NCBI GenBank assembly: GCA_038049695.1
Contig: CP142455.1
Span: forward strand, 27,317,501 to 27,381,500
DNA from: Cinnamomum chago
Taxonomy: Eukaryota > Streptophyta > Magnoliopsida > Laurales > Lauraceae
Reading direction: 5' to 3'
DNA: 64,000 nt
Shown here piece by piece: positions 5,381 to 62,571 of this stretch. The translations under genes were made by a program, and so were the position numbers. Each line of letters opens with the position of its first letter. Position 1 is the first letter of the stretch. The notes under the pieces are model-generated. The model did no database searches, had not been told where the DNA came from, and was given only the letters and a program-made list of their open reading frames with translations.

Positions 5381-5385
5381 ACTGG

Positions 5386-7155: not shown

Positions 7156-7160
7156 ACTGG

Positions 7161-13058: not shown

Positions 13059-13200
13059 CACTACACCAAAAACCAAGATTTGAAACAGTGATTTGAAACG
13101 TGCATTGGCCGTTTCTATGTTGGCGCGGTCTCAAACCGCTCGAAGACAAAGGACCGCTTCAAATTAAAAAAAAAAAACGTGTTGACATAACACGGCATCG
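13059..13200 (+). repeat. Left terminal inverted repeat and subterminal region of CACTA 1
   Basis: It begins CACTACACCAAAAAC. Short motifs around CCGTTTC, GCGGTCTC, AACCGCTC and GACCGCTTC follow, probably the counterparts of the GGAACGGT motifs at the right end and likely transposase-binding sites. Confidence 0.8.
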
Positions 13201-15970
13201 TTCCCTCCATACCTCATTTCCTTTGGCGTCAATCTTCTAAAACATACCATCCCGTCACTTCGTTCCCTCCATCACTTCGTTCGCTCCATACCTCATTCCC
13301 TTGGCACCCAAATACCCCAACGAATCCAACCGATCTCTTTGAGGAGTGTCTGAGACGATCGACAGGTGCAGCTTTCTTCTTCTCTCTGCTTTTTATTCTT
13401 TCAGCTATTTATCTTTCTGCTGTCTGGGTTTCAAATGATGGAGATTTTAGGTTCTGCTGGATTGTGGGAGTGGGTTCCATGGTGCTAGGAGATTTTGGGG
13501 GTGGATTGTGGGAGTGGGTTCTTGCGATGCTCCTCTTCCTCCCTCCCTCTTCCTCTCTCTTTTTCCTCTCTCTTCTGCTACTTTACACATTGCCAGCGCC
13601 TCCTGCATATCTTGTACATGCTTTGGGATCTCTTGATCAGAAAGCCTGCTTTTTTTTCCTCTTGCTTTTCTTCCTTAGTTGCCTCCACTGCCACAGCTCT
13701 GGCTGCAAAGCTGCCTTCTTTTCTTTCTCCTTTTCCTTCTTCTTAGCAGCAGCAAGACTCGAGAGTCTAGGCCTGAAACCATGCAAAATCTGATTCGATT
13801 TTCATTTGGATATGTAGGCCAAGTTTGATGATTCAAACCGTTGAAATTATGACCATTGTGAATGGAAAATCTCCCAGATTGGAAGATCCTAGCCATCTAA
13901 TCTGTAGCCTTCTTTGTCGTGTTTTGATCACTGCAGCATTGTGGTATTTTATTTCCTGACCACATCTCGTCAGTCACAAATTAAGGAATTGGGATCGTTC
14001 CATGAAGAAGAGTTTTGGTGCATAGGCGGGGCCTAGCATGTCAATTAGGTTCTCGAGCAAATTAAGAAGAAAAAAAATGCTGATATGCAGTTGAACTGCT
14101 CTGTTCTGCATTGGACCCCAATTTCAACTTGGTGCCCAGTTTACATCTAAATTCTACACTTTTGTACTTTTATTGTTTCTTTGTTTTTTTTTCTAATTGG
14201 TAAACTTGTATTGAGAGAAGAAGGGCTGAAGCCCCTAGGACAATGAGAAGAAAAAATACATCATAAGAGACTAACAGAAGAGAAAATTTTAAGTCTCCTA
14301 AATAGGGAGGAGCAGAAAACCAAGACAAAGCAGACAAAAAGAGGGCACGCCCAAAGGGGGTGCATAGCCTGCAAGGATCAGAGAGCTGAGATTGGAATTC
14401 AAGCTCAGTGAGAGCCTAGAGGAGCAAGCCAAACCAGACAGCCTTGAGCAGAACCCAAGGAATCTCTTCTAGGATAGCCCTTAAAGGTATTAAATCAGCT
14501 GAAAAATGAAACCAAAAGACTAAAGGCAAGAAGAGGAAGAGAGCACCAATTCTGCTAGATGCTCTGGATCTAGCCAGTGCCTAGCTCTGTTTCAGACCCA
14601 AATTCTCTGACTTGAACATAAAACTCAAAAATGAGGATGTGCTTCTCTTTTGGGATGCCCTTGCCTTTATAATCCACCTCAACTATAGATTCAATGGAAC
14701 TCAAATGAATCCATTGAACCCAAGTCATTATGGGAGTTGACATACTTCTGCCACTTAGCGTGCTACTGATGTGAACTTCATTGGATCATCTGAGCCTTTT
14801 TACAATACAATTGCATAAAAAGATCCTGTTGCTTCTTTAAGGACTTGAGCTAAATCAAATTCCTTTTCTCCAAGATGCAACTTTCTTTGTATTTTTATTG
14901 TAACTACAGAGTATACTCTAAAAAATATTCAGTGTGTGTGTATTCTAAATATTGCACCCTTTGGAAAGCAAACCAAACCAGAATAATTGGGTAACTGAAT
15001 ATACCCGACTCAACATGGATTGCTCTCAGGTGGGGAGTTTGCAATTTGGATCTGGTCAGGATGGGTATGTAGTGTGCCATGGATTATATTTGGTCCGGTC
15101 GAATCTACTGTGAATTGGCCAAATATATCTATAAAACTTGTGTCTTAATTTATTAGACAAGTTGTTTTGTATAAGACAAAACCTTCCTTCACCATAATAG
15201 TAACCAGCCAGCAATATTCACTGTCATGAGATCATGAACAGTAGACATTTTTTTTTTCAAGAGTTTCCATTCATGGAATGGAAATCTGTTGCTCCTACCC
15301 AAGAGCTTAATAAAAGAATGTGGATATACGCCCACACTCAGGTGGTTGATCAATTTTTTTTAACTTAGCAAGGTTTATTTCATTATGGCCTAAGTCCAGG
15401 ATACACCCACACTCTGGTTTGTGGAATTTGGATACGTCCTTATCAAGTAACAGATTACATAGTAGGTTTTAGGTGTTTGATCTAATTTTGCAGGAATGGA
15501 TTCAAGTTCTTGCATAAATTTTAGGGGCCCAATAGATTAAATCCTATCACCTTGCATCACCTAAATAAATAGATGATAACCTATACAAATGCCCTTTAAT
15601 CAAAGTGGCACAAGACATCTACATTTCAATCGCACTAGCTTGTAAGGCCATACGTTATCCACCTTGCATTAATCCTATAATGGAGTTGTCACCTTATTAA
15701 GGAGATGACCTTTATTGAAAGTGGCACCCAACAATCACAGAGCACTCCTCTTGTTTGCCTATATTCTACCCACCTTGCACTAATCTTATATGAAACATCC
15801 AAGTCAAACCCGCCGATGTGTTGTATAATTATTTTTTTCTACATTAAACATTGTTTTCTTTTCTAACTTAAATGATACCATCATTTATTTATGTGCCATC
15901 TATTTGATTGACTTATCTGAGGTTACCTTTGCTAGATCCATTTAACTTATGTGAGGTAAGTTGTTGCAGA
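13201..15970 (+). other. Leader region of CACTA 1, no protein gene seen
   Basis: It resembles an untranslated leader: CT-rich segments (13370-13420, 13540-13570, 13640-13760) and AT-rich sequence without a coding frame. The 330-residue frame that opens at 15908 begins before the likely start; the transposase ATG is placed at 15971, just after a TTGTTGCAG acceptor-like site, implying an upstream non-coding exon here. Confidence 0.45.
14177..14885 (-). mobile_element. Probable 5'-truncated LINE insertion
   Basis: A poly-T run at 14183-14192 is followed on the right by sequence whose complement reads like a plant LINE 3' end (CTTCAGCCC, TTCTCTCAATACAAGTTTACC, then poly-A). Candidate target duplications TTTGTACTTTTATTGT (14161-14176) and TTTGTATTTTTATTGT (14886-14901) differ at one base. 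The duplications are low in complexity, so the right border is tentative. Confidence 0.45.
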
Positions 15971-18900
15971 ATGTCGTCCTCGGGCAACAAAGCCTGGATG
16001 AACAAACATAGGTTAAGTCCGGAGTATTTAGAGGGAATTGTGCATTTCCTTGAGTTTACAAAGAAACATGGCGGTGGATTTAAGCATTTTCCCTGTCCAT
16101 GTGTTAAATGTCGAAATGGGAGTGGAATGATCGCCCTTAATATGATTCATGAGCATTTGCTCATTAACGGTATTGATGAGTCATATACACATTGGATTCT
16201 ACATGGAGAACGTGTTGCAGTAGCCAGTGAGAAAACAACAAAATCAAATCCTAATGAACAACCCTATCCTAGAATGGAGGAACTCGTTAATGATGCATTT
16301 GGAAGAATTGGTGAAAATATTGATGCTCTTATGGATGATCTCAGAAGGAACAGAGATATTCATGAAGGCTCCCAAGAGTTTCAAGGCGAAGATGAAGAAA
16401 GAATATATAAGTCTTTATTTGATGATGCAAGACAGTCTTTGTATCCTTCTTGTCCTAGGGAACTCACAAAATTGTCAGCTACTGTTGAGTTATACAGTTT
16501 AAAGGCACAAAAAGGTTGGTCGGACAATAGTTTAAATGATCTCCTTCAATTGGTGAAGAAGTGGCTTCCGGCAGGAAACACGTTGCCAGAAAGTACATAT
16601 CAAGCTAAGAAGATGATCAACTCGTTGGGAATGACCTACGATTCCATACATGCATGCCCAAATGATTGTATTCTTTATTGGAAAGAGTACAAAGACAGAC
16701 AAAGTTGTCCTATATGTCATACATCCAGATGGAGGTCAGATTACTTGGCAAAAAAAAATAGTGTTAGAGTTCCATTAAAGGTTTTGAGGTATTTTCCATT
16801 GACACCAAGGCTACAGAGGCTTTACAGGTTAGATTTCAAGGTTAATGATAGATTCCATAGGTCATTCTATTTGCCTTTGATTCTTAATTTTAATAACTAA
16901 TTATTATTTTTACATTGTTATGTAGTGTACCATGGATAGCAGAGCAAATGACTTGGCATGCTCAACCAAAAGAGAATGGCAGTGTTATGCGGCATCCATC
17001 TGATTCATCAAGTTGGGTGGTAGTAAATACCAAGTGGCCAATTTTTTCTGAGGAACATCGAAATGTTCATTTAGGACTTGCGACCGATGGGTTCAACCCT
17101 TTTGGACATCTCAGTAGCATCTATAGTTGTTGGCCTGTCATTATAGTGCCTTACAATCTCCCCCCCTCATTATGCATGAAAAGAGAATTTTCAATGTTGA
17201 CAGTATTGATACCAGGTCCAAAAGGACCGAGTAAAGACATTGATCTTTACCTACAACCATTGGTTGATGAGTTGAAAGAGCTATGGCTCAATGGAGTGTC
17301 AACGTATGATTCTCATTCGAAGACAATTTTTAACATGAAAGCTATGTTGATGTGGGGAATTCATGATTTTCCTGCATATGGGAGTTTATCGGGTTGTGTA
17401 ACACATGCACAGTTCGCTTGTCCTATTTGCGCCGAAGGAACCGTTTCCGAACGTCTGAAGAGTGGGAAAAAGTACTCTTATCAAATTCATCGAAGATTCC
17501 TTCCTGTTAATCACGTTTTCAGGACTCAAAAGGCGGCCTTCAACAACAAAACAGAAGAAAGAAGAGCTCCTAGTCGATTGAGTGGTTCAGAGGTTGAAGA
17601 CAAGGTGGCCGGTATTCAGATGGATATTGGAAAATCGAAGGGAAAGAAACGAAAAAGTTATGATGATGAATCAGCTGATAATATAACTGCCTGGTACAAG
17701 AGATCGATTCTTTTCAACCTACCATACTGGAAGGTGGTTTTCTCAATTTGGTACTACATTCCATATTCTTGTATTTTAATAAACAGACAAGTAGAAATTT
17801 ACTTTGTTTTAATGCTTTGACAGGATTTGCCAGTTCGTCACAACCTCGATGTGATGCATGTTGTGAAGAATGTTGGTGACCACCTTTTGTCAACGATCCT
17901 AGATGTCAAAGATAAAACAAAGGATGGCACAACTGCACGTGAGGATTTGAAAAGAATGAACATTAGGAAAGAGCTATGGTTACAAGAATCAGATGGGAGA
18001 ACTATTAAACCGAAGGCACCATTTGTTCTAAGTCGTAAGGAAAAGGAATTATTCTGTCATACTTTGCATGAATTGAAGGTTCCAACGGGGTATAGTTCGA
18101 GATTTAAACATCTCGTGAACATGCAAACCCTTGAAATAAAGGGGCTCAAATCACACGATTATCATGTCATAATGCAACAATTATTACCTGTTTTGTTACA
18201 GCATGCATTCTCAGAGCATAAGCCATTGAAAGCTGCTATTCAAGAAATTTGTAACTTCTTTAATGTCTTGTGCTCAAAGACGATTAGTGCAGAAAATATA
18301 ATTGGTGTAAAACAACGACTAATAGTGGCAATGTGCGTTTTGGAGAAGTTCTTTCCACCATCATTTTGTGTTATTAGCGTTCACCTCATGGTGCATTTGG
18401 CTGATGAAGCATTAGCTTGCGGTCCGGTTAGTTTTCGATGGATGTATCCTTTTGAACGGTAAAATTCTAACTTCAAAGTTGTCTTTGGTATAGTAGAGTA
18501 TAGTGCTAATTGGACATTTCTTAACAGGTTAATGAAAACTTATAAAGGATACGTAAAGACCATGGCACACCCTGAAGGGTGCATTGCAGAGCGATACATT
18601 ATAGAGGAATCTATTTTGTATTGTATGGAGTACATGCCAGATGGTGATAGAGGTAGTCACAAGAGAACACACCAAAGGTTTTTTGACGATGACGGTGAGT
18701 GTGATTAGGAGCCTTTGGATAAAGGCCGGAATGTTTACCTAACTAACATTCAACATCAACAAGTACGTAGGTGGGTTTTGGACTCCTATCGGGGAATTGC
18801 GGAATGGCATATGTGAGTTGACAAATTCCTAAATTAACATATAAGGTGTAGTAATTCTATAACACGTACACAATCATACAAAGTAATGTGTCTTTCATTG

Positions 18901-19706
18901 ATACAGGAAGTATAAGACATATTTAAGTACAACCACTCCCAAGGGTCCAAAAAAGAAGGGCGGTGTGTCTAAGAACATTGAGCATGATTTTATCAGTTGG
19001 TTGCGACAGGAGGTAATTAAGCATTTGTATATTTAATTCTAACTATTTGATAATATACATGATTATAATTGCTGGGTACTTTTTAATCCTTCTTCTTAAT
19101 GTGCAGATGGAATATGTTGAGGGAGAGCCGATACTGAAACGACTAGCAGTTGGGCCAATGTTCAAGGCCAAATGCTATAACAAATACCGTGTCAATAGGC
19201 ATGTATTCTCTCCAATTGATTACGAGACTAACAAATCAACACAAAATAGCGGGGTCTCAATGAAAGCGTTCACATTATACAGGGCAAGCGTTAAAGATAA
19301 AAAGTATAAGGAAGTTGAGGCCACCTATTATGGAGTTGTGAAACAGATAATTGAGTTGGATTACATTGATTTTCGTCAAACAGTATTTTCTTGTGATTGG
19401 TTCAAAGTAGAGGACAAGACTAATGGGTGCGTTGTTGATCCCGATACAAATTTGACAATGGTGAACATAGAAAAATTGAAAGGAAAAGATAAGGAAGGAG
19501 ACGAGCCATTCATATTAGCGTCTCAAGCAAGTCAAGTTTTTTACTCCAAAGATCAAACTAGACCTGGATGGGCTGTTGTTCTACTCGCCCCAAAGAGATT
19601 GACAAAAGATGTAGACGCACTTGAAGATCCGTGTCTCTTTTCTTCCACTATTAGTGCAGCTGAAAATCTAGAAAATGTTCTAAAAGAAATTAACTATGAA
19701 TTGTAA
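15971..19706 (+). pseudogene. TNP2-type CACTA transposase gene
   Basis: Exons inferred from GT-AG sites and domain continuity: 15971-16827, 16926-17733, 17824-18458, 18528-18812, 18907-19012, 19107-19706. The N-terminus is the transposase-associated domain (NKHRLSPEYLEGIVHFLEF, CPCVKCRN). The transposase_21 core follows (HACPNDCILYWKEY, CPICHTSRW, IAEQMTWHA, DGFNPFG, IPGPKGPSKDIDLYLQPL, CPICAEGT), then DUF4218-like (HNLDVMHVVKNV, LMVHLADEALACGPV, MAHPEGCIAERYI) and DUF4216-like (VFSCDWFKVE, PGWAVVL) segments. One in-frame TAG at 18706-18708 breaks the DUF4218 region; the rest is open. The protein would bind CACTA ends and catalyse excision and insertion. Confidence 0.9.
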
Positions 19707-20119
19707 AGCTGGACATATTTACTTTGATTTAACTATTTTTACAGTTGTGGAATTTTCAAGTAGTTGAATATGTGAAATATGAACTTTATGCCTATCGTGC
19801 CTTGATTTTGAATGTGCCTTGTTTTTCCCATATGCACTTTATGCTTATGCTTATGGTGCCTCGATTATGAATTTTCAAGTAGTTGAATATGTTGATTTTA
19901 TTTCACGCATTTCTGTGACTTGTTTGTGCTAAGTGTCATTATGTCCTTCGAGACATAGGTGTTCTGATGTCTGAGCAAGGGACAAGTTATTTGAATGCAT
20001 GTTAGAAGGAATTCATTTCATCACTATTTATACAGTTTCGTACTCAAGTTTTAAATGGTATTAATTTTATTTAACATTCATTTTCCGTTTCAGAAGCTTC
20101 CGTACCGCCAAAACAAAGA

Positions 20120-21738
20120 ATGGTGATTACCTTAAATGCTCATGGCCTACCGGTGGGTGAAAATTCAACCAAGTTGTCATCTAGATGTGGACACTTGGTT
20201 CGCACCATTGTCCCTATCTCATACAAGGATTGGCGTGCAGTGCCAAATGAAAAAAAAGATGAACTTTGGAAGCTCCTCCTAGTATGAAGTTCTTAGCCTG
20301 TATATCTTTGAAATGGCTTGATATTTAACTTGTTCTCTATTTAGTTGTTGAGCCTAAACAACCTCGTTTTTTTTTTAAAGGAAGATTTTGATGTTTCTCA
20401 ATCATACAAAGACAAATGCCTTAGAAGCATGGCTGAAAGTATGAGGAAATACAAGACCAAATTGAGGATGCAATACCTTGATCCCCACAAAACTCAAGAA
20501 GAAAAACTGAACAATCGTCCTCCAGGAGTTAGGCCTGAAGATTGGGAGGCATTCATTAAACATAATGCAGATCCAAAAACTATAGAACAACGTCAAAAAA
20601 ATCAGGAGATGAGGAAGAAAATGAAAATTTATCATACGAGTGGCAGGCATGGCCACGCGAGACTAGCGGAGAAGATGGTAAGTATTGGCATTTTTATGTA
20701 ACATGAAAAATTGATTATTTTATTCCACAAAAGCTAATAACGTGTAGTTCTTGCAAATATAGAAGCGCCAAAGAAATGAAGATGCCCCCCCCCCCCGATT
20801 ACTAGGGCTGAAGTGTGGATCGAAGCACATAAAAGAAAGGATGGTTCTATACCCATTGATGTCTCTTCACACATGGTGAGTTCATCATCTTACAGTTTAG
20901 TCGTTGAACTCACAGTTTAGTTGTTGGGATAGAAAAAAAGCATACCACGTTTACTTATGTGATGAGTATTTAATTTGACAGGAAAGAGTACAAGACTTAC
21001 TTTGCAGCCAAGAAGTTGATTCCCAAGACATCCGAAACGATCCTTTGACTAAAGTATTTGGCATTGATAAGAGGGGGCGTGTTTGGGGTGTTGGGAACAT
21101 TGTATCAAGATCCCAAATTATATCATCCTTGCCAGCTCTAGAAAAATTAGCAATGAAGGATAAGGAAGTAGCCGAGCAGTCGTCAATGGTTAAAAATTTG
21201 GAGTCCCAAGTAGACTGCATGAGGGCAGAACAAAAAGAACTAAAGGAAGAATTTAAGGGTCTTAAACAGTTGATTGAGGTATTAATGCTTTGTTGGATTT
21301 TTTTAATTTATATAAGGTTTCATAGTATCAGATTTTTTCTACATTTACTTAATTAATAACACATGCATTGGAATATTATTGTAGCATAGCATGACTTCAG
21401 AATCACAAGCAAGTGCAACACTTCCACATAAGAACAAAGAGTCAGTTGTGGTTTCCAACACCATAGGGAACGATCAATCTCCATTGACATTGCGGCCATG
21501 CAAAATGATGTCTTGGCAGTAAGAGGTGGTCGCTCTTGGCAGAGCTTATATTGAGAATGGGCCCCAACGGATTCACTCAAAATCTCTTCCAGCAGGTTAC
21601 TATAAGGTTTCTATTGACGTCATTGAAAAATCAGATGTCGAATTGCCTTATCCAGATGGATTTCATTCGACTTTAGGCGAGGTTGGGAATGGATCTTTTG
21701 TAGCATGGCCTGAGGTCTTTACCATATTCACGGATTAG
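20120..21738 (+). pseudogene. Second CACTA gene (plant transposase, Ptta/En/Spm family)
   Basis: Inferred exons: 20120-20281, 20381-20677, 20763-20875, 20982-21278, 21385-21738. Features in order are a short N-terminus (HLVRTIVPISYKDWRAVP), the Transposase_24-like core (RMQYLDPHKTQEEKL, RPEDWEAFIKH, ARLAEKM), TRAEVWIEAHKRKDG, a coiled coil (EQSSMVKNLESQVDCM), and the usual C-terminal block (GYYKVSIDV, GSFVAWPEVF). A TAA near 21521 interrupts the last exon. It follows the transposase gene in the same direction, the normal CACTA arrangement, and is thought to act as an accessory DNA-binding protein. Confidence 0.8.
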
Positions 21739-22211
21739 GCTGATCTAACTAATCTCTTAGATCTTTTTGTAAATCCAGTTGATAACAAGTTCAATGTGTT
21801 GGATTAGGTTTATCTTAGAAACTCATTTTGCTACTTTTGTTTATGCTACTTTTGTCTTGGAACATTGAAATGGTGAATGGAAGTACAGTTACACACAATT
21901 GGAATCGGCCCAACATGATTTAGAGTTATATATACTTGTCTTCAGATTTAAGGTTTACTTACACATGGCCTGTTACTTATACTTGGAATGGGCACGACAT
22001 GCTACTTTTCCTTTTTTCTTTTGTTTAAGCTCTCTGCTCTTGCAACGAAAAAAAAAAAGAAAAACAGAAAAATCAGAGAGAGTGAGTGAAACTAAAGTGC
22101 ATTGCAATTTTTGACATCTGTAGTTTGGTATGTATTTGTTACAAAGACAATCTGCCAATGCATTCTATGTTTCCATGAGCTCTCTCTCTCTCTCTCTCTA
22201 ATGTCTCGCAG

Positions 22212-22482
22212 GTGTCCATCAGAAACTGGAAAATTGCTACTTCATCTGTTGATTTCCTGGTATGTGTAGCAGTTATCATTTCTACTATTTGTCTTCCGTC
22301 TTTTTTTCCAAAGTGTTATTTACTGCACCTGGACTCTGCCATGTGCAGTCGGCAGTGTTTAAAGGAACAACATCAAACAGGATACCAGGTCTCTCTCCCT
22401 CTCTGTTTTTTTTTTTTAAACCTGACCTGGAACTTTTAAAGGTGCATATTTTGTCAAAAAAACTAATCCTCCCGGCTTTGTA
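22212..22482 (+). pseudogene. Captured exons of an unrecognised gene
   Basis: Three short open blocks sit between good splice sites: VSIRNWKIATSSVDFL (22212-22259, CGCAG before, GTATGT after), SAVFKGTTSNRIP (about 22347-22386, GTGCAG before, GTCTCT after) and AYFVKKTNPPGF (about 22440-22480, AAAG before, GTAAGT after). Blocks two and three join in frame. The parent gene was not recognised. Position beside the CNOT1-like and RAE1-like exons suggests the same capture process. Confidence 0.4.
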
Positions 22483-22681
22483 AGTGACATTCAATTGGCC
22501 TGAAGAAGTTCCAAAAAATGTTCCTCGTAGGACTATTAGCTATTGAAGAACAGCTAATGAAATGGCTCAACAGGGACCCTTGAAATTGCATCTCCACCTT
22601 ATTTATATTCTTTACATCTCCACCTTATTGAGTTTACCATCTGATTCTAACTGTGACCTTAACTATGTTCTTTATGCTACA

Positions 22682-22990
22682 GTGCTGCCACAACTCATGT
22701 TGGGGGAACTGATGGCGTTATCCAGCATGGTGCTGAAGTCAGTTCATCTACACCTTTTCATTCGACTGTTGCAGCCCTTGACGTGCATGTGATGGAAAAC
22801 ACACCTCTAATGAAAGTAATAATGTCGTCATCCATTTTGTTAGAATCCATTTTAATCGATTTCATAAGAACTGACATTAAGTATTTGGTTTTGTTCAAGG
22901 ACTCGAGGGCTGTTGTACAGACTTTGCCAGCAACTTACTCAGACATGGAATTAATCTTTTGCAGGCATGGTACTCTCCCCTTTAAATGAA
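22682..22990 (+). pseudogene. Captured exons, possibly CNOT1-like
   Basis: After CTACAG, the block ATTHVGGTDGVIQHGAEV...MENTPLMK runs to a GTAATA donor at about 22816. A second block (DSRAVVQTLPATYSDM) follows TTCAAG. The style resembles the low-complexity middle part of plant CNOT1, but this assignment is from memory and weak. If right, the fragment is out of its natural order relative to the CNOT1-like exons at 25116. Confidence 0.3.
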
Positions 22991-23400
22991 ATTTCTCTTT
23001 TTGCTTGTTAAAGGGGCACTTGGATAATAGTGTCCATGAACGATTTGGTCAGTATAATAGACTCATTAGAATGATTTGAGTAGTGGTCCATGATTAGATT
23101 TATTTAATTCTCTATAATAAGCAGCTGGGCAAAAATTTTGTCATTCAAATCAGCTTGGAATGCTGTTAGTGAAATTCTAAAAACAAATCAGTTTTATACT
23201 TCAAGATGCTTGAGTTATTCCTCACAAATCAAGACTACCACTTTATTTTCCCCGAAATGGTGTCTAAAAATCAATCCAAAAAACCGCAACCAGATTAAAA
23301 GAAGAGTGGAAGAAAAGGTAAACTCTAGCAATATTATTTATAAATTCACCACCTAATAAATCAAATCAATAAAAGGCAAACACTAATAAAGGAAACAATT
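22991..23400. other. AT-rich sequence, nothing recognised
   Basis: No exon-like block or repeat end seen between the captured exons and the truncated LINE. Confidence 0.5.
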
Positions 23401-23415
23401 AACTAGAGCAGTGTG

Positions 23416-23944
23416 TGCCTCTGGTCTCTTGGTCTCGTCTATCTCTTCTGTGTGGATGGGTGGAGCTGCTGTTTTCTCCCAGCTTTTCTATCTTCTTTTG
23501 CAGCCTGTGCTCCTCTTCAGTTTCCAGCCATTTTCCAGCCTTGAAGTAGTCTTGGTTTGCTCTTCGTTTTGTTCTGTTGGAGAGGCTTTGCCCTGATTTG
23601 TGCTTGGGTCTTAGCTTGGTTGCAAATCCAGTTTCTCTCCTCTTCTGTGGAGTGTCTTTTTTCTGCTGCTGGAAGCTTTCTTTTCTGTTTAAGCTGCAGG
23701 TGGCTATGTTCGGCCAAGGTATTTTTTGCTCTCTTTTGATGCTATGCTATGCAGTGTAGTGTTTTCCTTTTTTCTGTATGCTTCCCCTGTTATGGGCTTA
23801 TTCTTGTAATTTTTTGGTTCTGTTTTGCAGTGGGTTGGCGGTTTTTTGTAAGCCACCCTTTGCTGGTTCTCTTTGTAATTGGGGGCTTTTGCCTTTTCCC
23901 TCCCTTTCTTTAATACAAATTTTGCCATTCAGCAAAAAAAAAAA
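23416..23944 (+). mobile_element. 5'-truncated LINE
   Basis: The segment ends in TTTGCCATTCAGCA and a poly-A tail, and is flanked by a perfect 15-bp duplication AACTAGAGCAGTGTG (23401-23415 and 23945-23959). Its last bases (TTTAATACAAATTTTGCC then poly-A) resemble the 3' end of the full LINE at 36380-36421, so both may belong to one family. Only non-coding 3' sequence remains. Confidence 0.85.
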
Positions 23945-23959
23945 AACTAGAGCAGTGTG

Positions 23960-25115
23960 CAATTCTTACTGAAACCATGAGCCATAGATAAGACACAAGT
24001 CCTTCAATTGATAAAAGCAACCTTTATTTATATTTTTTTATTATTTCTGATTGAAAAGTGGCCTTTAATTTATTAAAACCAAATTTAATAACTGGGAGAC
24101 ATCTAAATTCCCAATTGGAATTGGATCATACCCAAAGTTTACTTTTAAGCTTTCATTCACTCACCATGGTTATGTACAAATTGGTAGGGGGGAAAATCCA
24201 AGACGAAGTTTCCTGTTTTGTTTCATTTCCAGTTGATGAAATGCTCTCTAGTAAAAACAGAAAGCATGTAAAAGATAAATTAAAAAAAAAGGGAAGAGTG
24301 AATGGGATGAAATCAAGCATATTAAAGACTTAGAGTGCAAGTTCAGTGGATATGAGAAAAAAGATGAGTTGATTAAACTTGAAAATAGATATGTGATAAA
24401 CTTGGACACCTAGTAGCAGACTAGCAGCTATTGAACAAAATAGAGTTTGACTTTAATATAGCAAATATGATCAACATATGTGGCCAAAAAGGATACAATC
24501 TAGTTTGAGTGCTATGATATCATCGCGTTCCCAGAGGAGAAATTTTAAAGTTGCAGTTAGAGCTGGCTTTGTTCTCTGAAGCTAAATATTGTGCAACAAA
24601 GAAGGAAGAAGAGAAAATACTGGTGGCTGAAATGTGTATACTAAGATGAAATTACTATTTTTGACTAAAAAAGATAGCTCAATATTAATTTTTTGAAAAT
24701 GAAACTACAAATTAACAAAAATCTGAAACGACTGCCTCAATTTGTAAAATAGGTGCCCCAATCTGCACTAATCATAGTGAGCCCCATCACTATAACTAAA
24801 AGCCTTAAATAACTTTTAAAGAATACCCACAATCACCCTTAATAACTGCATAATCTGATTTTTTTATTATTTCTGAACACTACAAGTAATTTTTTTTTTC
24901 GGGGTGAATCATTCAATGAAACTTTCTTAGCATGTTACCCTGTTGTGTTGTCCCCGGTTAAATGTAACAAAATCATGCAATGCAACAAACAAAAGATACC
25001 TTGTAGTGTGTCAATAGGCTGTTCCATAATGGCTATTTGCTTAAGACCTTAGGATTCCCCAAAATAACAATACCATGGCGGTTTTCCATTGATATGGTTT
25101 TGCTTAATATGTCAG
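23960..25115. other. CACTA 1 interior, no gene identified
   Basis: AT-rich. The stretch about 24330-24650 has a lysine/glutamate-rich look when read forward (for example LECKFSGYEKKDELIKLENRY and EAKYCATKKEEEKILVAEM), as if from a coiled-coil gene, but stops break it and the parent is not recognised. Confidence 0.35.
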
Positions 25116-25611
25116 GCGCTGCAATCTATCAATAGAGACATATCTTCATCTCTTGATTATAGAAAGAAGCCTAGAGATGGAGTTAGTTATGCTTCTGCAT
25201 TTTATGATGCAGGTACTTTTGCAAAAACCCCCTTTGCTGGCATACCAGAGGCACTTCGCCCCAAACCTGGTCGCTTGTCCAATACCCAACAGCGAGTTTA
25301 TGAGGTAGCACATATTCTATCTATCTGGATGATATAAAAGTTACTTTTGATTTCAATTGTCTTAGCTTATGTCAGTTTACTTTATATTCTACTTTCTTGT
25401 ATATTAGGATTTTGTTAGGTTTCCATGGCAAAATCAGTCAACCCAGAGTTCAAATGCTGTTACTGCTGGTCTTCCTGGTTCATCTGGTGGTTCTGCCAGC
25501 TCTGGCCTCTCTCGCGTTTATGGTTCAAGTTCTGGAAAGCCAAACTCTAACATCTACTCAACTGCACAAATGATTCCAGGGTTCAGTACTGTCCCCCAGT
25601 CATTGGATTGA
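25116..25611 (+). pseudogene. Captured exons of a CNOT1-like gene (CCR4-NOT scaffold)
   Basis: Exon one (25116-25304, CAG before, GTAGCA after) encodes INRDISSSLDYRKKPRDG... PEALRPKPGRLSNTQQRVYE. Exon two (25408-25611, TTAG before) encodes DFVRFPWQNQSTQSSNAV and a serine/glycine-rich tail ending in TGA. The PEALRPKPGRLS-QQRVYEDFVR-PWQNQ block matches my recollection of plant CNOT1, the scaffold of the CCR4-NOT deadenylase complex. Intron 25305-25407 is retained, so capture was from genomic DNA, not mRNA. It is a fragment and cannot make a working protein. Confidence 0.7.
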
Positions 25612-25951
25612 TCTATTCTTTTGCATTGTTCATCTGTGCTTATTTAAGAAGTTAAAGCATTTTTAGAACTTAAAATTTCTTTACTAATAGTATAATTCTT
25701 TTTAGGCCAGTCCCTGAGAAAAGCTATCAGTAGCAGTGGTTATTATTGTATTGTATTGTATTTAGCAGGCATCCAATTATATTGCTGTATAGAGAAAAAA
25801 TCAAATAGTAACTGTTGCACCATCTTTTCTTAATTTTTTGTTGCAAGTCATAAAAAAAATGATTTTTTTTCCATGGGAAACTGTTGCACCAAACAAATAA
25901 AAATGGTTTTCATCTTTTTTGTGTTCAGGATCTTTCATTTTCAGGTCATTG

Positions 25952-26358
25952 ATGTCTAATCTTTCGGGCCTCAACACTGCTGTGGGTGCAAATCCAAATC
26001 CAAACAAGTCCGTCGAGGTAAAATTTTACTTCTACCTCTAAATTTTCATGGAACAGATGCTTACACAATATGTTGTGAATTTGATTGAATCAAGCTTCTC
26101 ATCACAGGTGACTCAGCCGCCAACTGATTCTGTTTCCAACCTTTGCTTCAGTCCTAGAGGCAATTTCCTTGTGGCTACTTCCTGGGATAATCAGGTCTTT
26201 ACTCCCATTCTCTTCTTCTTGGTCATCTATGGATCTATTTTTATCTGTTGGCTGAAATTATCCCTTTCTATTGTGTAAATAAATGAAAGGTGAGATGTTG
26301 GGAGATACTCCAGACAGGAAGCAGTGTACCAAAAGCAGTGATATCCCATGACCAACCA
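25952..26358 (+). pseudogene. Captured first exons of a RAE1-like gene (mRNA export WD40 protein)
   Basis: ATG 25952 opens MSNLSGLNTAVGANPNPNKS to a GTAAAA donor at 26018. The second exon (26108-26194) has VTQPPTDSVSNLCFSP and NFLVATSWDNQ. The third (26289-26358) has VRCWEILQTGSSVPKAVISH then DQP. This is the start of the RAE1 WD40 propeller, including the natural start codon, with introns kept. It lies 340 bases after the CNOT1-like exons on the same strand. The rest of the gene is absent. Confidence 0.8.
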
Positions 26359-26459
26359 GTATGAAATAATGAATGAATTTTGTGACTTTTTTTTTTTATA
26401 ATGTTGTGGACAGTGAATGAACAGTTTGGGCTAAAATGCGGGCCTAAATTCTCTTTAGG

Positions 26460-26990
26460 TTTTGTATAAAGATTTATGTGATTTATGTGGGCTGTGCAGG
26501 GTGGTGCAGCAGGTGGGCTGTGCAGGTGGGTGTGTGCAGGGTGGTGCAGCAGGTGGGTGCGTGCAAGGAAGGTGTGCAAGGGGATGTGGTGGGGAGATGA
26601 AGAGCAGGTGGGGTTCAGGGGGCTGGGACAGTGGCTATGCAAGCCGGGTGGTGATGGCAGTGCAGTGGGTGGTTGTGAGGGAGAGGAAGAAAGGACGAGA
26701 AAGAGAAGGGAAAGAAAAGAATGGAGAAGGAGATGGTGATGGTGTCGGCATGCAGTGGAGGTGCAGCGGGTACAGGTGGCAGGGGGAGGAAGAAAGGAAG
26801 GAGAGAAGTGGGGGAAGCAAGAGAAGAAAAGGAAAGGGAGAGGGACGTGCACAGGCATGGGTGCAGGGGAGAAGGAGAGAAGAGAGGGGGGAAAGAAATA
26901 AAGAAGAGGAGGCAGTGGGTGTGCAGGTGAGTGTGTGCAGGGTGGTGCAGCTAGTGGGTGTGTGCAGGTGGTGGAAGAGGAGGAATTAAA
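26460..26990. repeat. G/A- and TGCAGG-rich low-complexity block
   Basis: Repeats of GTGCAGGGTGGTGCAGCAGGTGG occur at both ends (26497-26560 and 26920-26975) around a purine-rich GAGAAG core. Long open frames on both strands here are compositional, not genes. Confidence 0.7.
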
Positions 26991-27239
26991 CCTTTTCCAA
27001 AAGTTCTGGGTTGATTTTGAGTTATATGTGTTATGTATTTCTAAATATTGTAAATTGCACATTTAAATTCAAGTTAGTACATTGATTTTTTAAATAAAGT
27101 AACAGATGACGTGTGATATTAATGTGCAGGTGTGAATGCTACCATTTATGGTTTTTTTTTGTGATTTAAAAAAAATGAATTTAATGGCAACTACAAAAAA
27201 TTACGGTGAAATTATTTAAAAAATGATAATAATAATTAA

Positions 27240-27740
27240 ATTAGGGATGGTTCCAAATTGTCATTTAGCATAGTAAAAACTGATCCAATATCAAAAATTA
27301 GAATTTGGAATGATTTTAGAAATTTTGAAAGTTTTTAAAAGCGTTCCAAAATAGACTAACTAATTGGGACACTTAAAATTGGAACGGTTCTACAAAATCT
27401 GAAAGTGTTTATAACTTTATCAAAATTCTAAATTTGGAACGGTTTTGGAAAATATAAGTGTTTAGGACCGTTCCAAAAAGGACTACAACCATTCCAAATT
27501 TTTGTATTTGGAACGGTAAAGGGTCATTTGGCAGTGTTAAGAACTGTCTCAACATTCAACATTTGGAACGGCTCTAAGAATATTGGAACGGTTTTCAACA
27601 TTTCCTAAAGTTTGAATTTGGCGCGGTTTAGAGCCGTTCCAATGGTTTAGGAACATGGCGATTAGCAGCGGATTTGGACCGTTCCAATTTCTCATAGGAA
27701 CGGTTTTGAACACTTCTTGTTCGCTGTTTTTGGTGTAGTG
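27240..27740 (+). repeat. Right subterminal array and terminal inverted repeat of CACTA 1
   Basis: GGAACGGT or its complement ACCGTTCC occurs at least nine times between about 27375 and 27720, with related GGTTCCA forms before, ending with the complement of CACTACACCAAAAAC. Such arrays are the usual transposase-binding regions of CACTA ends. Confidence 0.85.
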
Positions 27741-28151
27741 AGAACTCCAATACTAATTCTGGTATTTTCCTGTGATTGAACCATCGGAAAAAGTACCGCT
27801 CTATTAACATTTGATCAATGGGGCTCATAAAATGATTTTAGGGTTGGTTTAGGGGACAAAAAAAGATTAAGAAAAGAGAAAAGAACTTGTCATAAGGTCA
27901 TTTTTTTTTCAAACGAAAAAATTTATGGAGAAGATTTGATTGAAAGAAATATGAAAAACTTGTATGCTATTTTGAACTATTCAAATCTTCATGTGCATTT
28001 TTAAAAATAAGGTAAAAGTTTTATAGTTTTTTTTGAAAATTTTCCTTTTAAAAATAGGTTACGTACATAGAAAGCGTTTAAGAAGTGACCACCTATCACA
28101 AATAGTAACATCAAAATCTAATTGGATGAAATAGTTGGGCCTATTGTAAAA
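27741..28151. other. Spacer between the two CACTA elements, no gene seen
   Basis: AT-rich 411-bp stretch with no coding or repeat features recognised. Confidence 0.6.
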
Positions 28152-30671: not shown

Positions 30672-32653
30672 ATGAGTTTTGAAATCCAGCCTCTGACACA
30701 CCTTCCCGCCCAAACCCAACCACTTTACCCGACCACCATTTCAGGCCAACCACCACCCTCCCTACATCCGGCCACCCACCAACCTTATCTGACCAACTCC
30801 ACAGGTCATCCACCACCCCCCTCCCTCTAGCCCTGCATTCCTTTTCCCTGAGTGCTTCCCCTGTTCAGCCTTTGTCTCCTCATCCCCTTCTTCCCCACCC
30901 TCCCTCTGCTCAGACCCAGCCTGCAGCTTCCAGTGGCCCCCAACCTTTCTCATTTCAGCCTCACCTCTTCCCCCCTCTTCCTTCTCAGTCCTCCCCTGCT
31001 CTCCTTTCCCCTGCGCCAGTTCCTTCAGACACTTCCGCCATCGTCAACAATGCCTCTCCTTCCCCTCCCCTACAGCAATCCTTTGCTAACCTCTTCTCTG
31101 CGTCTCCTTTCCCCTCACTCTTTGGCCCTCCGACCCTCCTTGCGTCTCTCCCTGTTCCAACGTGGAGCAATGGTAAGCCTTCTCTCACCATCCCTCTAAC
31201 AATGCTTAACTCTAGTAAAGAGTCCTTCTCCTTTGCAGTAATAGGTAGATTTGTAGGCAAGCGTCCTTCCCTTGAATGGGTGGAGGAGCAAGCTCAGCAC
31301 TGGCCGTTATCCAGACCATGTATGGTCTCCCTCACCACCAAAGGATACTTCATTTTTCGGCTAAACTCCCCAGCAGACAAAGCCACCATCCTCAGTCTTT
31401 CTCCCTTATCTATTGATAAGAAAAAAGTCTTCTTCCTCCCTTGGTCCCCTGGACAAGATGAAACAGCCTGGCCTTCCTTAGCCCCAGTCTGGATTAGACT
31501 GTCTGGCATGCCTTACCACTGCTGGAGCCAACATATCATCCTCTCCCTAGCCAACTCCATAGGGCAACCTCTCAAGCTTGACACCATTACAATGGCTCAG
31601 CGTATTCTATCCTTTGCTAGAGTTCTAGTCAACTTAGACCTCTCCAAACCTAAGCCTTCTTCCATTTTGGTTAACTTCCAAGGGGAAGGTGAACATGAAA
31701 TTTCAGTGACCTATGAACATTGTCCTTGTTCCTTTTGTCTCTCCCCAGGTCATGGCCAGACGTCCTGTCCACTTTCTAGGAAGGCCTCTGCTAGTACTCA
31801 CACAGGCAACCAGGACTCCTCTAGTGCCTTGCTAACTAACTCCACTCCTGGTCTGCAAGCAATACTTTCTGGCCCTCCCCCTACAGTGGTCTCAAATCCT
31901 CCCCCCCCCCCAATTCTCTCTAGCCCTCCTCCTCCTGTCACCTTAACCTCCCCCCCTCCTCCTGTCACCTTAACCCCCCCCCCCCTTCCTCCCTCCGCTC
32001 CCAACCTAGCTTCTTCTTGTAGTCCCCCCCCCCCTTCAGGGCTCCTTCTCCACCCTCCAGTGGCCTCAACCCACTGCCCCTGCTCTGCTCCCAGCCTTTC
32101 CTATCCCCCAACCCTTCCTATCCTTCCTTCTCCCAATCCCTCCCCAGCCCAGAGTAATAAGGATACCACTCAGATGGCCACCCCCCCTCCATTAATGACC
32201 TCCCATATGATGTTGTCACTGCCATTCTCCAGAAAATACCAGCACCCTCCATTGATCTCTCTAATCCTTTCTCTATCCTAGACCACTGCTCTCTCCTTGA
32301 TCAAGTGGACAACCCTTCTACCTATGGTCGCAACCTTCTAGCCTTCTCTGAAGGAAACTCCTACTCAGAGCTGCCCCCTGGCTTTGAGTCCCCCCTTGAT
32401 CTCCCTGCCCCAGTTCCCCCCCCTTCCCCATCCCATAGCTGAATCTAGCTCTCCCATTTTAAGCTCTGCTGCTCCTGTTCCCCTTAACTCTATGACAATA
32501 TCCCCCTCCGCAGTAGTCAATCCTCCCCCCTCCATCAACCACAGAGGTAAAATCAATAAAGGTAAACCTCCCTCAGTCCCAGCTCCCTCATCTGGCCCAA
32601 TCACCAGAAGATCTAGAGGCAAGATCACTCCCCCCAACCTTTCTCCATGTTAA
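30672..32653 (+). pseudogene. LINE ORF1 (nucleic-acid-binding protein), frameshifted
   Basis: ATG 30672 opens a proline-rich frame to a TAG at 30828; the body continues in another frame from about 30683-32281. The conserved part is a DUF4283-like domain (AVIGRFVGKRPSLEWVEEQ, GYFIFRLNS, PVWIRLSGMPYHCW, LVNLDLSKPKP). It is followed by a CCHC knuckle CSFCLSPGHGQTSC. A long proline-rich tail with many C runs follows. Further frame changes occur near 32185 and 32430, then SINHRGKINKGKPP leads to a TAA overlapping the ORF2 start. All breaks are near C-rich runs, so indels in homopolymers or assembly errors are likely. The protein would coat LINE RNA. Confidence 0.75.
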
Positions 32654-35600
32654 AAGTTTTCTATTGGAATTGTAGGGGCATTGCAAACTGCCCCACCCAA
32701 CGTTCTCTGGCCAATATGATTCGTAATCACTCTCCTGATATAATCTTTATTTCTGAACCAATGACCTCCCCTTCCCCAGCCATCTCCCTCAGCTGGTCCA
32801 GGTTTGGCTTTGACTCCTTTCACTCTAATGGCTCATCCTCCCCCCTTCCCCCTAACCTCTGGTGCTTATCTAAATCTACTCACCACCTTTCCATCACAGT
32901 CAAAGACTTCTCTTCTCAGCATCTTACAATGCTCCTCCATAACAACTCCTCAGGCGTCTCTACTGCCATCACTGGCGTTTATGGCTCTACCAATCCATCC
33001 CTTAGAAAGGACCTTTGGGCAGTCCTCATTGATTCCTCCACTTCCTCCCTTCCCTGGTGCTTTATAGGGGATTTTAATGCAACTCTTAGCCACGCTGACA
33101 AGCTCAGCATTTGTCCTCCTACAGCCTCTTCCCTCAAAGCTTTCCAAACTGCTGTGCTGCAAGCAGGTCTTCTTGAAACCAAGTTTGTAAGGAATAGATT
33201 CACCTGGTCTAACAACAGACAAGGATCCTCCTATGTGGCTGCTCGACTTGACAGAGCTTTGGTCAACTCCTCCTGGCTCAGCCACTACAGAGATCCCTTC
33301 ACCCTCCACCTTCCCAGAATTTCCTCTGACCACAGCCCTATCCTCTTAACTCATCACACTCAAGGACCCTGCTCTACTCCCCCTTTCAAATTTGAAAATA
33401 AATGGCTGTCCCACCCCACCTTCCTTGCCACAGTTAAATCCAGCTGGGACTTACCTATAGCCGGAGATCCTCAATTCACCCTTGCTAACAAACTCAGAGC
33501 CCTCAAGCAGACCCTTAGACAATGGAGTAAGTCCACTTATGGCAACCTCATTCAGAATATCAAAGCTGCTGAGGCCAAAGTTCTAGACTGCCAGCAGCTT
33601 CATGACTCAGCTCCCTCGGACACCTCTAGTGCTAGCCTTTTCTCAGCCAAAGCAGAGCTCCATGATGCTCTCTCTGCCCATGAAATTCATTGGAAACAAA
33701 GATCCAGGATACAATGGCTGAAAGAGGGAGATCAGAATACTAAATTCTTCCACTTAGCAGCCAAGGCCAGGAGCTCATTCAACTCCATCCACCAGCTCTC
33801 CATTGATGGTTCTATCACAGAAGACCAAGCCACCATTCAATCCCATGCAGTGGAATTCTTTTCCAATCTTTTCAAGCCTCAGGACAGTCTAGTAATGCCC
33901 TCCCTTTTCCAAGTTAGTAGTCCTAAGGTTTCAGCTTCAGAGAATGCATTGCTCACTGCTGTTCCTTCTCCTGATGAGATTAAAGTGGCTGTCTTCTCCC
34001 TCAACAAGAACAGCTCCCCTGGCCCGGATGGATTCAACGGAGCTTTCTTCACTGCCTCTTGGAGTATCATAGGTCAGTCGGTCATAGCTGCTGTGCAGCA
34101 CTTTTTCCTTTCAAAAAGGATCCACAGAGCTACCAATACCTTTTTCCTAGCCTTAATCCCCAAGTCCAGCTCTCCTACCTCCCTAACAGATTTCAGACCT
34201 CTCAGCTTACTGAACTTTTCCTACAAAATCCTCACCAAAATCCTATCTACCAGGCTGGCTGCCATCATCCCTAAATTGATCTCCCCCCACCAAGCTGCTT
34301 TCATCAAAGGAAGGAACATCCAGCAGCATTCAGCACTGGCCTTTGAACTCTTCCAGAAGCTGAACTCCAAGTTTAACAAAGGATCCATTTGCCTTAAGCT
34401 AGACATCTCTAAGGACTTTGATAAGTTAAATTGGACTTTCCTTTTCACAGCTCTCCTTTTCTTTAACTTCTCTGAGACGTGGATCTCCCTGATTAAAGAA
34501 TGCATCTGCACATCTAAGGGCTCAGTGCTTCTCAATAGAATGCCTCATGGTTTCTTTAGCTCTTCATGTGGCCTCAGACAGGGAGACCCCTTGTCTCCCT
34601 ATCTGTTCATCCTTGCAGAGGAAATACTGAGTCTCAACTTGTCTAACCTCCTTAAGCAAGGTCTTCTTCTTCCCCTGTCCAAAGTTCCCGCCACCCCCTG
34701 CCATTTACTTTATGCAGATGACATCCTCCTCTTCTTGAAAGGAGCAACCTCAAGTGTTCTTATTCTCCAGGACCTCCTGGAGTCCTATCAGGCAGCCTCT
34801 GGGCAATCCTTCAATCTCCAGAAGAGTCAGTTGTTCCTTGGTAAATGCAGCTTGAGAAGGAAGAGAAGGATCAGTTCCATCCTCGACATTCCAGTTGCCT
34901 CCACTCATCTCAAATACCTGGGTACCCCGATCTGTTTTGGCACCCCAAAAAGGATTCATTTCCTTCCTCTGCTGGATGCTGTCCAGACCAAGCTCACTGC
35001 TTGGAAGGCTAAAACTTTATCCTTTGCAGGCCGTCTGATTCTCATAAAGCATGTCATCTCGAGTCTCCCAATTCACCTTGCAGCAGTCATTCCCTTGCCT
35101 GCTTCGATTTGCAAGGAGATAGAGAGATTAATGAGGCATTTCCTCTGGTCAGGGAATGCTCTCAGCCACAAACTCAATTATGTCAGCTGGGCAACAGTTA
35201 CTCTTCCTAAAGCTGAAGGTGGCTTGGGCATCCGGAAGCTATCAGAGATTAATTCAGCCTCTTTCCTTAAGCTGGGATGGCAAGCTGCTACTTCTCAGAC
35301 TTTGTGGTCCTCCTGGTTCAAGAACATGTACTTCAAATTCCGGCCCATCTGGAGTTCGGACAACTCCTCCTATGGATCATGCATTTGGAAGAAAATCAAA
35401 CATCTAGCTCCCCTCCTTCATCAAGGCAGCTTCTGGGTAGTTGGCAACGGCCAGGACATCAATGTTTGGCATGATTCCTGGTCTGCTGGTGTCCCCATAT
35501 CTGCTTGCTTTCCTGGCCTTCACTTTCCAAGGGATCATCGTCTCTCCTCTCTCTTCCAAGCTGGCTCCTGGACCATTCCGGAAGTTCTGCCAGTTGCGGT

Positions 35601-36261
35601 TCATCAGCACCTCTCTAACCTCCTCAAGGATCTCTCTCACAGCCTTGCTGTGCGAGACTCCCTCAGATGGAGAGACTCCCCAGAGGGTAAGCTCAACATG
35701 AGCTCTGCGTGGCAGCTTATCAGACACTCCGCCCTGCCTCTCCCCTGGCCCAAGTTCATATGGAACAAACTCTCTCCCCAGAGAGTTAACTGTTTTGGAT
35801 GGCGGTTGATGCTCAACAAAATCCCAACAGAATCTTGGTTGAAGCGGTTGGGTTTTTCTCTTGCTTCAAGATGCATTCTATGCTGTGCTGCAGAAGACAC
35901 CTTGGGCCATCTCTTCTTCTCCTGTGACTTTGCAGTGGCAACTTGGTTCTGGTTCTTTCAAGTAGCAGGTGCTCCTCCCCAGCTGAATTTCTCTGCTTCA
36001 TCCATCTGGAGGATCCTCTCCAAGGATAGTGATGCCAAAGGTCTTCATTTCATGGCAGCCATCTTCATCTCTGTCCTGTATCATCTTTGGAAGGTTCGAA
36101 ATGAGACCATCTTCAATAACCATAGGCTCTCTCTCCTCTCCATGCAAGCTCGCCTATCTGAAGCTATTTCCTTCTCTCTGTTGCAGATCACGTCTCCTTT
36201 TGTCAATCACCACCTCAGTGCACTCTTTAGATCCATGCACTTAGCTCCTAAGTCTGGTTAG
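32647..36261 (+). CDS. LINE ORF2: endonuclease and reverse transcriptase
   Basis: 1204 codons without a stop. Start ATG 32647 lies in ATGTTAA, overlapping the ORF1 stop. The N-terminal AP-type endonuclease has WNCRGI, SEPM, GDFNAT and SDHSPI (first 230 residues). The reverse transcriptase follows with NSSPGPDGFNGAFF, IPKSSSPTSLTDFRPLSL, HQAAFIKGRNI, LDISKDFDKLNW, LRQGDPLSPYLF and YADDILLF. A zinc-binding RVT domain near the C-terminus has FIWNKLSPQRVNCFGWRL and CILCCAAEDTLGHLFFSC. Motif A reads KDFD where KAFD is usual; the catalytic aspartates are present. It would nick target DNA and copy LINE RNA in place. Confidence 0.95.
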   Translation: MLKVFYWNCRGIANCPTQRSLANMIRNHSPDIIFISEPMTSPSPAISLSWSRFGFDSFHSNGSSSPLPPNLWCLSKSTHHLSITVKDFSSQHLTMLLHNNSSGVSTAITGVYGSTNPSLRKDLWAVLIDSSTSSLPWCFIGDFNATLSHADKLSICPPTASSLKAFQTAVLQAGLLETKFVRNRFTWSNNRQGSSYVAARLDRALVNSSWLSHYRDPFTLHLPRISSDHSPILLTHHTQGPCSTPPFKFENKWLSHPTFLATVKSSWDLPIAGDPQFTLANKLRALKQTLRQWSKSTYGNLIQNIKAAEAKVLDCQQLHDSAPSDTSSASLFSAKAELHDALSAHEIHWKQRSRIQWLKEGDQNTKFFHLAAKARSSFNSIHQLSIDGSITEDQATIQSHAVEFFSNLFKPQDSLVMPSLFQVSSPKVSASENALLTAVPSPDEIKVAVFSLNKNSSPGPDGFNGAFFTASWSIIGQSVIAAVQHFFLSKRIHRATNTFFLALIPKSSSPTSLTDFRPLSLLNFSYKILTKILSTRLAAIIPKLISPHQAAFIKGRNIQQHSALAFELFQKLNSKFNKGSICLKLDISKDFDKLNWTFLFTALLFFNFSETWISLIKECICTSKGSVLLNRMPHGFFSSSCGLRQGDPLSPYLFILAEEILSLNLSNLLKQGLLLPLSKVPATPCHLLYADDILLFLKGATSSVLILQDLLESYQAASGQSFNLQKSQLFLGKCSLRRKRRISSILDIPVASTHLKYLGTPICFGTPKRIHFLPLLDAVQTKLTAWKAKTLSFAGRLILIKHVISSLPIHLAAVIPLPASICKEIERLMRHFLWSGNALSHKLNYVSWATVTLPKAEGGLGIRKLSEINSASFLKLGWQAATSQTLWSSWFKNMYFKFRPIWSSDNSSYGSCIWKKIKHLAPLLHQGSFWVVGNGQDINVWHDSWSAGVPISACFPGLHFPRDHRLSSLFQAGSWTIPEVLPVAVHQHLSNLLKDLSHSLAVRDSLRWRDSPEGKLNMSSAWQLIRHSALPLPWPKFIWNKLSPQRVNCFGWRLMLNKIPTESWLKRLGFSLASRCILCCAAEDTLGHLFFSCDFAVATWFWFFQVAGAPPQLNFSASSIWRILSKDSDAKGLHFMAAIFISVLYHLWKVRNETIFNNHRLSLLSMQARLSEAISFSLLQITSPFVNHHLSALFRSMHLAPKSG

Positions 36262-62568: not shown

Positions 62569-62571
62569 TTT

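Follow-up and report, generated by a model that had tools for sequence, protein, structure and literature searches.

Genomic DNA of NOT1 and RAE1 captured by a CACTA element of Cinnamomum chago

How did exons of two unrelated genes, NOT1 and RAE1, come to lie side by side within a transposon of Cinnamomum chago (Lauraceae)? We analyzed a window of 64,000 nucleotides (C5:27317501-27381500 of the 1.061-Gb assembly) and sought copies and parent genes in the same genome. An earlier note on this window had reported two CNOT1-like exons and the first three RAE1-like exons including the ATG, all on the plus strand with introns kept. Positions and parent genes confirm this observation: the exons are real and lie inside an element of the CACTA (En/Spm) type, referred to here as CACTA element 1. 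We regard it as very likely that this CACTA element holds captured genomic DNA of NOT1 and RAE1, that its history comprised four steps and that the exons most likely have no protein function. The captured exons are the following.

25116-25304 and 25408-25608, plus strand: NOT1-like exons of 189 nt and, before an in-frame TGA at 25609-25611, 201 nt; phase 0
25305-25407, plus strand: NOT1 intron, kept between the two NOT1-like exons
25952-26017, 26108-26194 and 26290-26358, plus strand: RAE1-like exons of 66, 87 and 69 nt; phase 0

RAE1-like exon 1 opens with the ATG, and an AG stands 7 bases before it. AG directly precedes the other four of the five exon starts and GT follows every exon end but one; the exception is NOT1 exon 2, which stops at a deletion junction instead of a splice site. 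The acceptor of RAE1 exon 4 is also retained (26457-26458), which the earlier note had overlooked. Together, the NOT1 and RAE1 parts provide 204 open codons, with an expectation of 5e-7 from the stop frequency of the flanks. Dinucleotide shuffles stayed open in 2 of 2000 cases for the NOT1 part and in 89 of 2000 for the RAE1 part. Splicing NOT1 exon 1 to the AGs before RAE1 soon led to stops.

A search with the NOT1 fragment alone yielded no Pfam or NCBIfam family, and in the PDB only unrelated chains (best E 0.16). Compared across the exon junction with CNOT1 letters checked in the PDB, the fragment outscored 5000 of 5000 shuffles in local and 4999 in end-to-end alignment. Left unspliced, however, the frame of exon 1 came just third among the 1232 frames of the window against CNOT1. 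Since the fragment itself is uninformative in family searches, its identity was taken from the parent locus (L009, see below). For the RAE1 fragment, the best single PDB stretch was residues 16–89 of mRNA export factor (3mmy, which we take to be the human protein), covering residues 5–75 of the fragment. Four repetitive WD40 chains outscored it only by summing many weak stretches. No match was found in viral contigs (searched with both fragments), in plasmids (NOT1 only) or, for the window, in Rfam at the gathering threshold.

For the genome search with 25116-26358 the best 40 of 67 candidates were scored, resulting in 42 rows, and all counts derived from them are lower bounds. The rows comprise at least 12 places with both genes (window included), at least 13 with NOT1 only and at least 12 with RAE1 only (one with much of the fragment, at least 11 with a 209-bp piece). 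The remaining rows belong to the NOT1 parent (2), the RAE1 parent (2) and a RAE1 paralogue (1). Both parental genes, which the earlier note had proposed to seek in the same genome, were thus found. The NOT1 parent is locus L009 on C7, whose main block is ~97% identical to the window piece. With its exons joined by eye, it shows the Not1 domain DUF3819 (Pfam E 1.5e-48); it also matches PDB chains of CCR4-NOT subunit 1 through the captured exon (E 3.5e-25) and belongs to Not1. The RAE1 parent is locus L010 on C10, with a main block ~94% identical to the window piece. L010 matches mRNA export factor at 1.2e-70 over 6–211, compared to 2.1e-44 for the best differently named chain, and belongs to RAE1 and not to another WD40 protein. 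By its similarity to the DNA of L010 and to an RAE1 sequence, L011 on C9 is a second RAE1-like gene.

The captured DNA can be divided into several pieces, the first three of those listed being embedded in a right block shared with other copies.

25080..25612, plus strand: NOT1 piece 1, 96.8% identical to L009 5867-6400 (C7:63522867-63523400)
25603..25722, plus strand: NOT1 piece 2, 91.9% identical to L009 7044-7167, after an internal deletion of ~650 bp
25719..26463, plus strand: RAE1 piece with upstream DNA, 3 exons, 3 introns and the very start of exon 4
22666..22936, plus strand: out-of-order NOT1 piece, 95.9% identical to L009 6661-6931
24069..27740, plus strand: right block, ~99% common with copies having a different left side; junction at ~24069

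The RAE1 piece consists of two blocks, 25719-25910 (L010 4639-4830, 88.2%) and 25919-26463 (L010 5068-5618, 93.7%). Overall, the DNA is 92-97% identical to the parent for NOT1 and 88-94% for RAE1. NOT1 adjoins RAE1 directly with nothing between them, and the joins, read by eye, show a GATT overlap inside NOT1 and an AAAA overlap at the NOT1|RAE1 boundary. With introns kept, both parents found and NOT1 joined directly to RAE1, the evidence supports capture of genomic DNA by the CACTA element, as the earlier note had proposed; the fused piece moreover recurs at 12 or more places. The piece at 22666-22936, which the earlier note had missed, covers an intron together with part of each of the two later NOT1 exons flanking it. 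It is part of the stretch absent between pieces 1 and 2 and sits 2.1 kb upstream. The exons at 22.66-22.94 kb were also considered as a third captured gene, which was rejected on their match to L009. The adjacent stretch 22328-22665 is common to two related elements (L037 and L038, see below) up to 22449.

CACTA element 1 itself is built up as follows.

13059..27740, plus strand: CACTA element 1, 14,682 bp, CACTACACCAAAAAC termini, AGA target duplication on both sides
15971..19703, plus strand: TNP2-type transposase gene in several exon-like pieces
20095..21740, plus strand: second CACTA gene (Ptta/En/Spm type), reading frame partly broken
27298..27740, plus strand: right subterminal repeats with subterminal motif matches, and right terminus

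Its ends form a perfect 15-bp inverted repeat (CACTACACCAAAAAC), the terminal repeat expected of a CACTA element and the longest match among all CACTA/TAGTG pairs of the window spaced 100-25,000 bp apart. The 3-bp target duplication typical of CACTA (En/Spm) elements is AGA in the window and ATG, GCA and CTA in copies B, C and M, respectively. A TNP2-type transposase is identified by Transposase_21 (E 1.3e-88), and the profile search further gave Transpos_assoc (2.6e-19), DUF4218 (1.7e-19) and DUF4216 (3.8e-16) in this gene. The window copy carries a single in-frame stop within the transposase stretch 18529-18816. In the second gene, Transposase_24 was matched on 20384-20689 (E 1.1e-6; 29.3 bits versus a cut-off of 28.7). 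The subterminal motif has 11 matches at 27001-28000 versus one at the left end, and one non-poly-A 10-mer is shared inside both ends. A retroposon-like insertion with a poly-A end and a 15-bp flanking repeat (AACTAGAGCAGTGTG) is located within the element at 23405-23945. A 131-bp stretch at 24878-25008 (CACTACAAG...CTTGTAGTG) was dropped as an element of its own, having no target duplication.

The NOT1|RAE1 join is present at these at least 12 places with 98-100% identity, and each of the 12 was read wholly or in part. We compared 13 copies (A–M), 12 with both genes, whole or in part, and copy M with RAE1 only. Both ends were compared for copies A, B, C and M, and in all four the 3-bp target duplications match; the captured DNA was moved by transposition. 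That the exons are remnants of natural genes, or that the assembly was wrongly joined here, is extremely improbable: the parent genes lie elsewhere (C7 and C10), the same join recurs at 12 or more places, and matching duplications flank all four elements compared.

Transposase copies of 99-100% identity were found at seven places at least (best 40 of 779 candidates). Four of these lie beside NOT1-RAE1, namely in the window, on C6 and on C2 at ~2.77 Mb and 72.15 Mb; the C6 and ~2.77-Mb copies were also read, and the 72.15-Mb copy was assigned by position only. The other three are L037 (C1), L038 (C7) and C3:34123627. L037 and L038, both read in part, carry the NOT1 arrangement 6392|8128 (L009 numbering) of older relatives. 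The 2.5 kb read from one 96% (L039) and one 87% (L040) transposase relative contained no NOT1.

The left sides of the copies differ. L002, L004 and L006 have a common left side unlike the window up to 24069 (~450 bp read) and match the window from there on, whereas L005 and L007 have the left side of the window at 24069. Copies B (L027/L028, 11,118 bp) and M (L026, 5,513 bp) possess a left end only 75-77% like that of the window, and BLAST gave no match in them to the transposase genes of the window. As the right block also occurs without the transposase-bearing left part, the window element combines two parts and is probably a hybrid.

Derivative forms were also observed. A deletion derivative (25896-26104 and 26646-27740) with the 209-bp piece of RAE1 exon 1 occurs at no fewer than 11 places with 99-100% identity to the window, two of which were read (L020 and L021); it perhaps represents a recent burst. 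L033, L034 and L035 all break at window position 26092 and constitute a further derivative of the fused block.

Was NOT1 captured once or twice? Of the at least 13 NOT1-only places, 12 were compared (L012–L019 and L022–L025). All 12 match the NOT1 parent and nine have the 6392|8128-type join. The deletions of the two NOT1 lines start bases apart, at L009 6392 and 6396, and end at ~8128 and ~7047, respectively. Since the same region of NOT1 is present in related transposase-bearing CACTAs, there with a different internal deletion, NOT1 was probably captured only once. For nine window-family and eight older copies, the mean distance is 3.2% between window family and parent, 5.3% between older copies and parent, 5.7% between the families and 0.8% within the window family. 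That the window family and the older NOT1-only family each captured NOT1 separately appears unlikely to us. Two captures would account for the differing right junctions (7044 versus 8128) and for the shared left edge that is not followed by NOT1 in the window. However, L009 base 6324 is changed in 9/9 window-family copies and, despite their older arrangement, also in L037 and L038, compared to 0/9 older copies and an unchanged parent. Furthermore, the older line and the window share the element DNA just before the left NOT1 edge.

A single capture with subsequent spread, which we prefer, has to be weighed against several observations. No NOT1 follows the shared left edge in the window. L037 and L038 are tied to the older line by the 6392|8128 join and also by base 6388, which they have in common with two older copies; these ties suggest a mosaic history in which recombination is likely. 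The shared differences from the parent at 6297, 6302 and 6377 could be changes in the parent, and overlaps of 4 bp, AAAA above all, are weak evidence of microhomology. Both the order in which NOT1 and RAE1 were gained and the hybrid's direction are tentative.

Parents, junctions, copies and target duplications were observed directly; from these we infer the order of the steps, the recombination and the joining mechanism of the following model. In the first step, an ancestor with its own transposase would have captured, by end joining or template switching, a NOT1 span of ~2.9 kb that begins at the end of the DUF3819 coding part. Its descendants would then have lost differing middle parts of NOT1. 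In the third step, one line would have fused its NOT1 piece, with a few bases overlapping, to the 5' portion of RAE1 and subsequently to G-rich DNA near the right end. Finally, the fused block would have spread by transposition in transposase-bearing and transposase-less elements, a step that would include at least one recombination near 24069. At a substitution rate of 7e-9 per site and year, the intron divergence of ~6% would correspond, as a rough estimate, to some 4 million years and the 0.8% between copies to ~0.6 million.

The earlier note had also suggested that small RNAs or chimeric proteins from read-through transcripts might affect two regulators of mRNA fate (deadenylation and export). 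The frame to be considered here extends beyond RAE1.

26459..26989, plus strand: G-rich stretch of 176 codons, stop included, continuing the frame of RAE1 exon 3 via the retained exon-4 acceptor

Together with RAE1 residues 1–74 this stretch (48% G) forms an open chimeric frame of 250 codons. Weak matches to it (73-93%) lie mostly on C3 at 8.73-9.46 Mb (best 40 of 240 candidates), a possible source of the stretch. Between the NOT1 exons and the parent there are 6 nonsynonymous and 2 synonymous changes, counted without polarisation; on the element side of RAE1, polarised with L011, the numbers are 3 and 2. Among copies A–M, 17/390 sites are variable in NOT1, 8/222 in RAE1, 23/528 in the G-rich stretch and 39/1521 in noncoding DNA. 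Selection was assessed by CG/CHG-matched permutation on the copies other than E and M, with P values uncorrected over the three regions. No purifying selection on the captured exons was detected by this permutation (NOT1 P 0.43 with 15 changes; RAE1 P 0.68 with 6 changes and hence little power). A stop interrupts NOT1 exon 1 in copy G; in copy I, both NOT1 exon 2 and RAE1 exon 1 contain insertions. Since the exons are without visible constraint, no protein function is indicated and most likely there is none; the proposed effect on deadenylation and export thus receives no support.

The G-rich stretch is the part that fits neutrality least well. Of its 19 changes, 13 fall on third positions (P 0.004), an excess that neutrality does not predict, and 10 are synonymous (P 0.046); with CG-only matching, P is 0.016. 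The four-exon chimera of RAE1 1–74 and the G-rich stretch could accordingly be regarded as a recent gene of the transposon's making that is expressed and maintained by selection. The frame is open across the retained acceptor, the stretch stays open in just 1/2000 whole and 3-11/2000 block shuffles, and the RAE1 exons are free of stops in 10/10 and of indels in 9/10 copies. Nevertheless, we consider such a gene very improbable. Of ten copies, five are open throughout the stretch (A, B, F, G and H), copy I was read in part and four are broken, by a stop in C, an insertion of ~490 bp in D, a rearrangement in E and a 13-bp deletion in M. The RAE1 exons show no synonymous excess, a reverse frame leans in the same direction as the coding frame (P 0.06), and the high G content and the uncorrected P values also speak against it. 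RAE1 has seven WD repeats, and the captured piece holds about one. The selection signal in the G-rich stretch is weak and unsettled. The insertion in copy D (L004 2961-3459) shows an 8-base overlap at window 26574-26581.

A transcript of the element could splice the captured exons and then be degraded or feed small interfering RNAs (siRNAs), as proposed for other transposon-borne fragments. Whether such siRNAs act in trans on NOT1 or RAE1 is doubtful. The identity to the parents (88-97% over hundreds of bases, at 12 or more places) would permit it, and NOT1 has been linked to RNA-directed DNA methylation by Zhou 2020, which excerpts of two papers cite and whose title names Pol IV-dependent siRNA production. 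On the other hand, the window contains no inverted duplicate of the exons. An even more speculative idea, to which we give very little credence, is that NOT1 exons are retained in this CACTA clade on account of the support that NOT1 gives to Pol IV siRNA production, as a self-limiting shield that the export factor RAE1 joined later. If this were true, siRNAs directed against the transposon would also strike NOT1 and weaken the silencing that produces them. NOT1 pieces are present at no fewer than 25 places in the genome, parent excluded.

The window contains further repeats. A second CACTA-type element (28152-49689) has 10-bp CACTACAACA ends, an AAA duplication and ACGTCGGTAAA-like subterminal repeats, and comprises two tandem blocks of ~2.4 kb each at 39.0-43.1 kb. 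Two long open frames of 532 and 1214 aa lie inside it at 30683-36261, presumably an L1-like long interspersed nuclear element. Pieces on the minus strand at 3806-9170 and 61426-63348 resemble, as far as we can judge, a long-terminal-repeat retrotransposon polyprotein. A frame with ankyrin repeats is located at 50731-51153 (Pfam Ank 3.4e-6).

How does the element compare with known systems? The comparisons below refer to excerpts of the cited sources. Soybean Tgm-Express1, a 5.7-kb CACTA element with five host gene fragments, demonstrates that splicing can bring such exons into transcripts (PMC1947982). Like Tgm-Express1, the present element has CACTA ends that enclose fragments of several unrelated genes, in which both exons and introns are present; unlike it, the element is 14.7 kb long, has transposase domains and shares its fused block with at least 11 other places. 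The label Pack-CACTA, given in the earlier note, applies in part: host coding DNA from identified parents does lie between CACTA ends. Pack-TYPE elements are, however, defined as non-autonomous (PMC8903248), whereas the window copy keeps transposase domains, albeit with an in-frame stop; copies B and M, which show none, fit the label better. Captured gene fragments inside CACTAs with coding regions have likewise been described in Chenopodium (PMC8978399). There they are located 5', upstream of the first open reading frame (ORF1), whereas in our case they occupy the 3' half, after the second gene and before the right end. As a mechanism, a review (PMC13317346) proposes that neighbouring CACTAs give rise to a hybrid element when each loses the end that the other keeps; the join at 24069 and the two types of left end fit this idea without proving it. 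Our literature search on CNOT1 or RAE1 captured by a CACTA element found no relevant report.

The event is thus ordinary in kind, being a known type of capture, and its history is unusually well resolved. Within one genome the same pieces can be traced through parent, older capture, fused block and transposase-bearing and transposase-less copies, so that one can test in which order and by which mechanism CACTA elements capture genes. It is also a case of a transposon carrying exons, at most putatively functional, from a gene that has been connected with the silencing of that same transposon.
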